A DNA stretch of 64,000 nt, taken from assembly GCA_017626055.1 (NCBI GenBank), contig JAGAJM010000014.1, positions 62,001 through 126,000 of the forward strand. The letters are read 5' to 3'. The stretch's first letter is position 1. Each line of letters starts with the position of its first letter. This DNA comes from a bacterium. Lineage in GTDB: Bacteria > Cyanobacteriota > Vampirovibrionia > Gastranaerophilales > Gastranaerophilaceae. The notes beneath the pieces are model-generated. The model made no database searches. It saw only the letters and a program-made list of their open reading frames with translations, and was not told the origin of the DNA. Of this stretch, positions 35,347-36,555 are shown one piece after another. A program made the position numbers and the translations under genes.

Positions 35347-35363
35347 TAAATTTGTATTCCAAT

Positions 35364-35517
35364 GTTCGAATTATACCCGGAGATTTTGGGGCATGCAAAA
35401 AAGCGAACGAAATACAGACGGCTATGAATCATACAGCATGAAATGATTCTTCTCTCAACCAAGGGAAATAGCCGATAACAAAGGACAGATTTCGCATTTG
35501 AAACCTGTCCTTTTTTT
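35364..35517 (+). ncRNA. Candidate structured RNA downstream of hsp20
   Basis: The segment folds into consecutive helices: GUUCG (35364-35368) with CGAAC (35404-35408); GGCUAU (35420-35425) with AUAGCC (35468-35473), enclosing GAAUCAU (35426-35432) paired to AUGAUUC (35443-35449); and a terminator hairpin AAAGGACAG (35480-35488) with CUGUCCUUU (35505-35513) followed by U residues. No open reading frame with an SD covers it. It could be a separate small RNA or the structured 3' UTR of hsp20; no clear promoter is visible at its 5' side. It matches no RNA family I can name. Confidence 0.45.
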
Positions 35518-35529
35518 CATAATTACTTA

Positions 35530-35738
35530 GTCGGGCATGCCCGATTTGAAGAATTTGTGAAATATTTTACAATTCTTAATAAGCAACAAAACCATGGAAA
35601 ACCATGTCATACCATGGGTTTACATGGTTTAAGAATTCCAAAAGCATGTCATGACATGGTTTTAGCCGTTTTTAAAACCTGAAAGGCTGAATACGGCACT
35701 ATTAGAGGGTTACGTTACAAAACTTCATAAGAACATGT
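35530..35738. repeat. Palindrome cluster with CATG motifs at 10-base phase
   Basis: Nine CATG tetramers occur here, plus two just upstream. Four start at 35593, 35603, 35613 and 35623, exactly 10 bases apart, in the context (A)ACCATG or ACATGG. Three more start at 35645, 35650 and 35655, inside the perfect 14-base palindrome CATGTCATGACATG. Other perfect palindromes are TCGGGCATGCCCGA (35531-35544) and GAACATGTTC (35732-35741). AAACCATGT and ACATGGTTT also pair as 9-base arms. It lies directly upstream of the promoter at 35746 and has no coding potential. Confidence 0.7.
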
Positions 35739-35745
35739 TCTCATC

Positions 35746-35773
35746 TTGAAAAAAAATACTTATTTCCTATAAT
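35746..35773 (+). promoter_or_regulatory. Promoter of the Cys-rich protein-hpf transcript
   Basis: TTGAAA (35746-35751), a 16-base spacer and a perfect TATAAT (35768-35773). Transcription from about 35780 would give a leader of about 100 bases before the next start codon, long enough to hold a folded RNA. Confidence 0.7.
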
Positions 35774-35879
35774 GAAAATATGAAGTCGGAAGTCATTGAT
35801 ATAAACGGCTTTGGGGAGATTGGTCGGTATATATTTAGGATATCGATTGGATAGTAAAATTTAAGTGGAGATTTATACA

Positions 35880-36101
35880 TTGTTTAGAAGTAGGGATATG
35901 GGAAGAGCAGTTGCGGTTAGAAGATGGACTACGACTGCATTAGAGTGCTATAAGAGAGGATGTAATTGCGAAGGATGTTTTTATAGAGATTTCTTCAGCG
36001 GTTCTTCTCAAAAATGTCAAATGAAAGCATCAGTTTTGGAATTAGTTAGAGTTATTGGAACTCCTGATGTTGAATTACCACAATTTTTAGCAGATGAATA
36101 A
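35880..36101 (+). CDS. Small Cys-rich protein upstream of hpf
   Basis: About 73 residues with the pattern WTTTALECYKRGCNCEGCFY followed by a fifth Cys in QKCQMKASVLELVRVIGTP. The cysteines look like a zinc or Fe-S site followed by an amphipathic helix. I place the start at the TTG at 35880, 9 bases after GGAG; GTG at 35865 or ATG at 35898 (MGRAVAVRRW) are alternatives and the conserved-looking part begins at the latter. Function unknown. It precedes hpf by 73 bases and is probably partly cotranscribed with it. Confidence 0.6.
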   Translation: MFRSRDMGRAVAVRRWTTTALECYKRGCNCEGCFYRDFFSGSSQKCQMKASVLELVRVIGTPDVELPQFLADE

Positions 36102-36174: not shown

Positions 36175-36555
36175 ATGCACATACACGTAAACGGCAGAAA
36201 CATTGAAATTACAGATGCAATCAAAGCATACGTAAAAGAAAAAATCGGTAAAGTTGCAACTCACTATGATCAAATTCAAGGTATTGATGTAGTGTTATCT
36301 GTAATCAAAAACCCAGCTGCAGAAGGCAAACACATCGCAGAAGTTTCATGCAAAACAAATGCAGGTGTAATCCGTTGTGAAGAAGCTGCAGAATCAATGT
36401 ATGCAAGCATCGATTTGTTAGCTGACAAGTTAGCTAGACAAATTACAAAACTAAAAGACAAAAACATTTCTTCAGACAAAGCATCAATCCGTACAGGTAT
36501 TGTTGAAGAAGTAGCTGAAGAAGTTGAAGAAGATGTAAAAGCTATTGAAGAATAA
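36175..36555 (+). CDS. hpf: Ribosome hibernation promoting factor, short form
   Basis: A 126-residue HPF/RaiA-type protein that binds the 30S subunit in stationary phase. The fold is visible as MHIHVNGRNIEITDAIKAYVKEKIGKV, DVVLSV near residue 43 and HIAEVSCKTNAGVIRCEEAAESMYASIDLLADKLARQITK. The usual C-terminal dimerisation domain of long HPF is missing; instead there is an acidic tail (EEVAEEVEEDVKAIEE). Start chosen at 36175, after GGAGG with 4-5 bases of spacing; an in-frame TTG 12 bases earlier is part of the SD region. Confidence 0.92.
   Translation: MHIHVNGRNIEITDAIKAYVKEKIGKVATHYDQIQGIDVVLSVIKNPAAEGKHIAEVSCKTNAGVIRCEEAAESMYASIDLLADKLARQITKLKDKNISSDKASIRTGIVEEVAEEVEEDVKAIEE

Follow-up and report, generated by a model that had tools for sequence, protein, structure and literature searches.

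Several described systems come close to the locus that we analyze here. Tandem palindromic operators for cooperative dimers have several dyads set whole helical turns apart in front of a single promoter. CRP sites measure 22 bp in an 8-6-8 layout, operators of the CRP/FNR family have cores TGTGA-N6-TCACA or TTGAT-N4-ATCAA, and plasmid iterons are phased repeats on one face of the helix. WhiB-like (Wbl) Fe-S regulators are small proteins with the cysteine pattern C-Xn-C-X2-C-X5-C. In cyanobacteria, the OmpR-family response regulator RpaB has HLR1 as its site, with a consensus of two (G/T)TTACA(T/A)(T/A) direct repeats and 2 nt between them. Published examples of HLR1 in Synechocystis include TAACAAAACTTTATAA and TTACAATAGTTAACAT (PMC6331805, Table 1).

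Little is known about gene control in the Gastranaerophilales (Candidatus Melainabacteria), the non-photosynthetic gut relatives of cyanobacteria. The stretch of 64,000 nucleotides analyzed here, which we refer to as the window, comes from a genome of this order of 1.87 Mb in 28 contigs, 96% complete. It includes an array of CATG motifs in a region whose annotated neighbours are hsp20, a cysteine-rich ORF, hpf, and a HEAT-repeat gene. The array is real, non-random, and conserved, and in 36 genomes it takes the form of two 24-bp dyads, AAAASCATG-N6-CATGSTTTT. We read it as a probable operator platform serving the cysteine-rich gene's promoter, where a dimeric regulator would bind the dyads cooperatively or with looping, perhaps next to an RpaB-like protein at two flanking boxes; we put the probability of this reading at roughly 0.7.

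The locus resembles the tandem palindromic operators in its multiple dyads, set whole turns apart ahead of a single promoter. It differs in its motif, which our literature searches did not find as a described operator; searches on these motifs returned nothing relevant. The motif is new as far as those searches reach, and ordinary in kind. Most of the families sampled in the order retain the regulatory module, which has a precise geometry and lies beside hpf, and the array is a ready bait for finding its regulator.

The CATG array and its geometry

A first-pass annotation of the window had listed CATG starts at 35593, 35603, 35613, 35623, 35645, 35650, and 35655, as part of eleven in 35392-35737. 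On recount these are exact, and the palindromes that it named (CATGTCATGACATG, TCGGGCATGCCCGA, and GAACATGTTC) are all found in the region. Its claim that the motifs cluster beyond chance also holds up: seven CATGs in 66 bp have a Poisson P of 2.6e-11 at the window rate and 6.6e-9 at the shuffle rate. In 2000 dinucleotide shuffles of the intergenic region, the mean number of CATGs is 1.95 and the maximum 8, never 11, and no shuffle places more than 4 within 66 bp. The window as a whole is poor in CATG, with 102 found versus 229 expected from shuffles.

A depleted word that is repeated and phased at one place could point to restriction-modification or methylation (an orphan CATG methylase), or to an iteron-like replication or partition site. 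But GATC, CGCG, GGCC, and CCGG are depleted more than CATG, which in 37 related loci does not rank among the six palindromes with the strongest depletion; we rejected restriction-modification on this ground. As for iterons, the phased repeats on one helix face are similar, but here they are inverted dyads upstream of a promoter, always the same one, on a chromosomal-type contig, and the neighbours that were annotated include no replication (rep) or partition gene. We thus reject membership in the plasmid iterons for want of a rep gene beside the repeats, and find this whole group of explanations highly improbable.

We aligned the intergenic region from 36 same-genus genomes (features in Table 1). 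The first-pass annotation had proposed an exact 10-base phasing and an alignment of relatives as the check. In the 36 genomes both the spacings and the dyads are conserved; the outer sites at 35593 and 35623 are conserved only in part, and what holds steady is the pair of dyads, spaced 42-43 bp apart. All four core CATGs of the dyads are identical in 36/36 genomes. Mean information is 1.51 bits for dyad 1 and 1.39 for dyad 2, versus 0.42 and 0.53 for the spacers that follow each. The dyad centres are 42 bp apart in 24 genomes and 43 bp apart in the other 12.

The same rigidity extends to the rest of the region, where most distances are constant within 1 bp although the spacer sequences diverge. 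Dyad 2 lies 69-70 bp from box 2 in the 36 genomes, and box 2 lies exactly 20 bp from the promoter-proximal site in 36/36; this last site reads CATG in 34 of them, and its distance to the -35 is constant in all 36. Box 1 is 36-38 bp from dyad 1 in 35/36, the contig of the remaining genome beginning inside that stretch. Relative to a conserved sigma70-type promoter (-35, 1.97 bits; -10, 1.55 bits; 36 genomes), the array spans about -45 to -190, and the annotated distance of about 90 bases to that promoter is correct, the promoter starting ~88 bp past the array.

Table 1. Features of the array, its promoter, and the genes downstream (window positions; dyads are candidate operators, and distances with a minus sign are from the inferred transcription start)
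Feature	Position	Strand	Description
Box 1, TTTACAATTCTTAATA	35566..35581	+	HLR1/RpaB-like direct-repeat box upstream of array; mean 1.62 bits, 36 genomes
Outer left CATG of four-site run	35593..35596	.	In AAAACCATG; partly conserved in genus
Operator dyad 1 (candidate)	35598..35621	.	AAAACCATG-TCATAC-CATGGGTTT; centre 35609.5, ~-170
Outer right CATG of four-site run	35623..35626	.	Partly conserved in genus
Operator dyad 2 (candidate)	35640..35663	.	AAAAGCATG-TCATGA-CATGGTTTT; centre 35651.5, ~-128
Box 2, GTTACAAAACTTCATA	35714..35729	+	HLR1-like box; centre ~-58; 1.64 bits
Promoter-proximal CATG	35732..35741	.	Within GAACATGTTC; 84 bp from dyad 2 centre
Promoter TTGAAA-16-TATAAT	35746..35773	+	11/12 consensus match
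Two leader RNA stem-loops	35782..35847	+	Flanking GGGGAGAT; covariation
73-aa Cys-rich ORF	35880..36101	+	TTG start, SD GGAG; directly downstream of array's promoter
hpf promoter-like site	-10 ending 36141		-10 TATACT; separate from array's promoter
hpf (ribosome hibernation promoting factor)	36175..36555	+	PF02482, TIGR00741

Beyond the genus, we examined 320 bp upstream of the cysteine-rich gene in 80 loci of the order (213 bp in one shorter locus). We observe 5-12 CATGs per 320 bp in 79 loci and 6 in the 213 bp of the shorter one, with a background elsewhere in the same loci of 0.2-1.1 per 320 bp. The commonest distance between successive CATGs is 10 bp, and the four-CATG units of other genera have spacings 10-10-10, 10-11-8, or the mirror 8-11-10. 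By family, the cluster is clear in f1 and f4-f7, marginal in f3, and absent in f2. The array has persisted over a long span of evolution in front of a single promoter. In one f6 locus (L284, genome G040), the halves of the first CATG unit are 41 bp (~four turns) further apart. The sequence between them has a GCTGTA/TACAGC inverted repeat of its own. This wider unit, like the scarcity of CATGs in f2 and f3, speaks against the operator reading.

Probable target gene and its protein family

The first-pass annotation described the array as lying upstream of the hpf operon, with that operon as its possible target. We find that the array tracks the cysteine-rich gene, not hpf. A same-strand hpf is downstream in 78/80 loci, following ~280 bp later in most. 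In families f2-f7 and several f1 genera, hpf was not found in the ~500-600 bp downstream, and most of these have the CATG cluster; the search for hpf in the distant families relied on sequence similarity alone and could have overlooked a diverged copy. In another locus (L107), hpf is inverted and 1.9 kb away, and there is no CATG cluster at its start. Because the array stays with the ORF where hpf is not nearby, and because hpf has a promoter-like site of its own, we assign the array to the cysteine-rich gene and reject hpf as its target.

Orthologs of the cysteine-rich protein occur in 131 of 292 genomes of the phylum, every match falling within the order, and most genomes have paralogs. The paralogs have no CATG cluster upstream. 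In 38 sequences, paralogs included, W14, A18, C21, Y22, C28, C31, C44, M46, L53, G58, and P60 are invariant; the cysteine spacing is C-x6-C-x2-C-x12-C, and the N-terminus is basic. The family as a whole is very highly conserved and order-specific, with TTG or GTG as the start codon in most loci. The protein has no match in Pfam (up to E = 10), NCBIfam, or PDB, and Foldseek found nothing significantly similar in structure to its AlphaFold model (pLDDT 78). No phage or plasmid relative was found in the search, and an origin from either was rejected on that account.

Like the WhiB-like regulators, the protein is small with four invariant cysteines, but it differs in cysteine spacing, in having no Pfam WhiB match up to that same E-value, and in not being found in Actinobacteria. 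We do not count it as a member. Could it still be the regulator, as a special case of the operator reading in which an order-specific metal- or Fe-S-binding protein binds CATG at its own promoter? The array and the gene share their order-only distribution and remain linked in lineages with hpf elsewhere, the invariant cysteines and basic N-terminus would suit such a role, and the genome has few other good sites, in keeping with a locus that regulates itself. On the other hand, none of the searches above (Pfam, NCBIfam, PDB, and Foldseek on the pLDDT 78 model) detects an HTH or other DNA-binding fold, and any operator would be expected to be tightly linked to its gene. We consider autoregulation unlikely. 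It is quite doubtful that the protein represents a new class of autoregulators, small DNA-binding proteins dependent on a metal or an Fe-S cluster that act through the CATG platform, with the leader RNA as a second layer of control, the whole working as a stress or redox switch complete in itself and, in many members, coupled to the adjoining hpf.

DNA element and leader RNA

The region folds better than its shuffles (z = -3.0) and the arms of the array are complementary, as one would expect of a folded RNA such as an attenuator, a 3' UTR, or an sRNA; the first-pass annotation had raised the possibility of one transcribed from hsp20. But the arms do not covary. Their covariation score is 0.046 versus 0.049 when shuffled, with 292/500 shuffles at least as high. 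The S base adjoining the core CATG varies between C and G independently in the two halves, and Watson-Crick pairs number 29 versus 29.7 expected for dyad 1, and 12 versus 13.7 for dyad 2. Because the changes in the paired arms lack compensation, we conclude that the arms are not paired as RNA. The outer CATG pair in other genera is complementary in 23/37 cases versus 15.8 expected, a count that ignores kinship.

We can trust that the test is able to detect structure here, because the leader RNA of the cysteine-rich gene covaries clearly. The leader scores 0.425 versus 0.244 when shuffled, 0/500 shuffles score as high, slid structures score far lower, and its stem-loops have compensatory changes in 7/14 pairs. 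Moreover, a terminator-like hairpin (35477-35516) separates hsp20 from the array, only some of the loci have hsp20 upstream, and the array lies upstream of its own promoter. An RNA coming from hsp20 does not agree with these observations, and we regard a folded RNA of any kind as extremely improbable. It is the conservation, the fixed spacing, and the lack of RNA-type covariation that lead us to the DNA operator reading. The first-pass proposal of a regulator-binding DNA array with helical phasing is borne out to that extent, and fails in proposing the hpf operon as the target.

The leader of the cysteine-rich gene is a candidate regulatory RNA, judging from its covariation. Neither the upstream region nor the leader has an Rfam match at the gathering score. 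Downstream of hsp20, at 35350-35520, there is a partly conserved CCGAnTT..CCC..GAG-ATTTTGGGGCATGCA..GCGG element that ends in the terminator-like hairpin, a possible small RNA with no Rfam match. Elsewhere in the window, positions 124-465 encode a bacterial RNase P RNA of class A (RF00010).

Operator model and candidate regulators

Our observations cover the sites, their conservation, the near-fixed spacings, the lack of RNA-type covariation, and the link to the cysteine-rich gene; protein binding, its cooperativity, and the sign of regulation are what we infer, as follows. A putative dimer would contact each half-site on successive major grooves, one helical turn apart. The two dyads 42 bp (four turns) apart, the extra half-sites, and the promoter-proximal CATG, another 84 bp (eight turns) along, would all present the same face of the helix. 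As whole-turn spacings would set them on one face, the bound proteins could act cooperatively or form a loop. An OmpR-type (RpaB-like) partner may sit at the two HLR1-like boxes, and the assembly could then either repress through a loop or activate.

The first-pass annotation also suggested looking for other CATG arrays in the genome, which yields few candidates. CATG-N6-CATG has 9 matches in the whole 1.87-Mb genome, 4 of them at this locus, versus 4 for a reversed-pattern control; four further matches fall inside ORFs. As the genome has few other matching dyad sites, no regulon corroborates the operator. We rejected a dyad regulon: the site at coaD in the window's genome does not occur in relatives, and the other CATG-N6-CATG matches are within ORFs. 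That coaD site (L162) consists of AAACCCATGTCTGATCATGGTTTT adjoining a TTTACAAACCTTAACA box upstream of the gene; its HLR1-like boxes, as distinct from the dyad, are often conserved in relatives. A related dyad, CATG-N7-CATG, lies upstream of yggS; it is found within GGCTGAAACCATGTCnnTGACATGATTT between YggS-like and transporter-like genes in three genomes of the genus (L026 at ~1500, L055 at ~525, and L056 at ~490).

Which regulator might bind the dyads? Another special case of the operator reading is a CRP/FNR-family protein at AAACCATG-N6-CATGGTTT, and the 8-6-8 layout over 22 bp, the N6 centre, and the AAA/TTT ends do match CRP-type sites. But the core here is CCATG-N6-CATGG, with half-site CCATG, and not TGTGA or TTGAT. 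Nor is there a clear member of the family in the window's genome (G000), which has one PF13545 match at 25.9 bits versus a curated cut-off of 27; most genomes of the genus have only weak matches. With neither the core nor, in a 96% complete genome, a family gene above the cut-off, we rejected a CRP/FNR operator and hold such a regulator to be very unlikely. Two dyads near HTH_Crp matches in another genome (G013) are inside ORFs of an apparent replication-type protein, and we dismissed them as a coding coincidence.

The flanking boxes resemble a known site, HLR1. Boxes 1 and 2 rank among the most conserved stretches of the region in the 36 genomes; box 1 is present in most loci order-wide, and the counterpart of box 2 in other genera is GTTACAAATGTTAACAAT, which fits most of the defined positions of the HLR1 consensus. 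Against that consensus, repeat 1 is a full match, and repeat 2 matches at 5/8 positions in this genome and up to 7/8 in other genera. Both boxes resemble the direct-repeat pattern, and box 2 is placed upstream of the core promoter, as at RpaB-activated genes. TTACAAAACTTCATAA has 2 differences from the Synechocystis site TAACAAAACTTTATAA (PMC6331805). The differences are that the host here is a non-photosynthetic gut bacterium, and that HLR1 leaves the CATG dyads unexplained. With these boxes one could test whether, in this phylum, the RpaB system of cyanobacteria is older than photosynthesis.

HLR1-like boxes are also found near other genes of the genome, but they are only about twice as frequent as a control pattern (27 versus 15) when one mismatch is allowed. 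A palindrome, GGCATGCC, at 35532-35545, ~20-30 bp upstream of box 1, also occurs in many relatives, where its position varies, and could be a further site.
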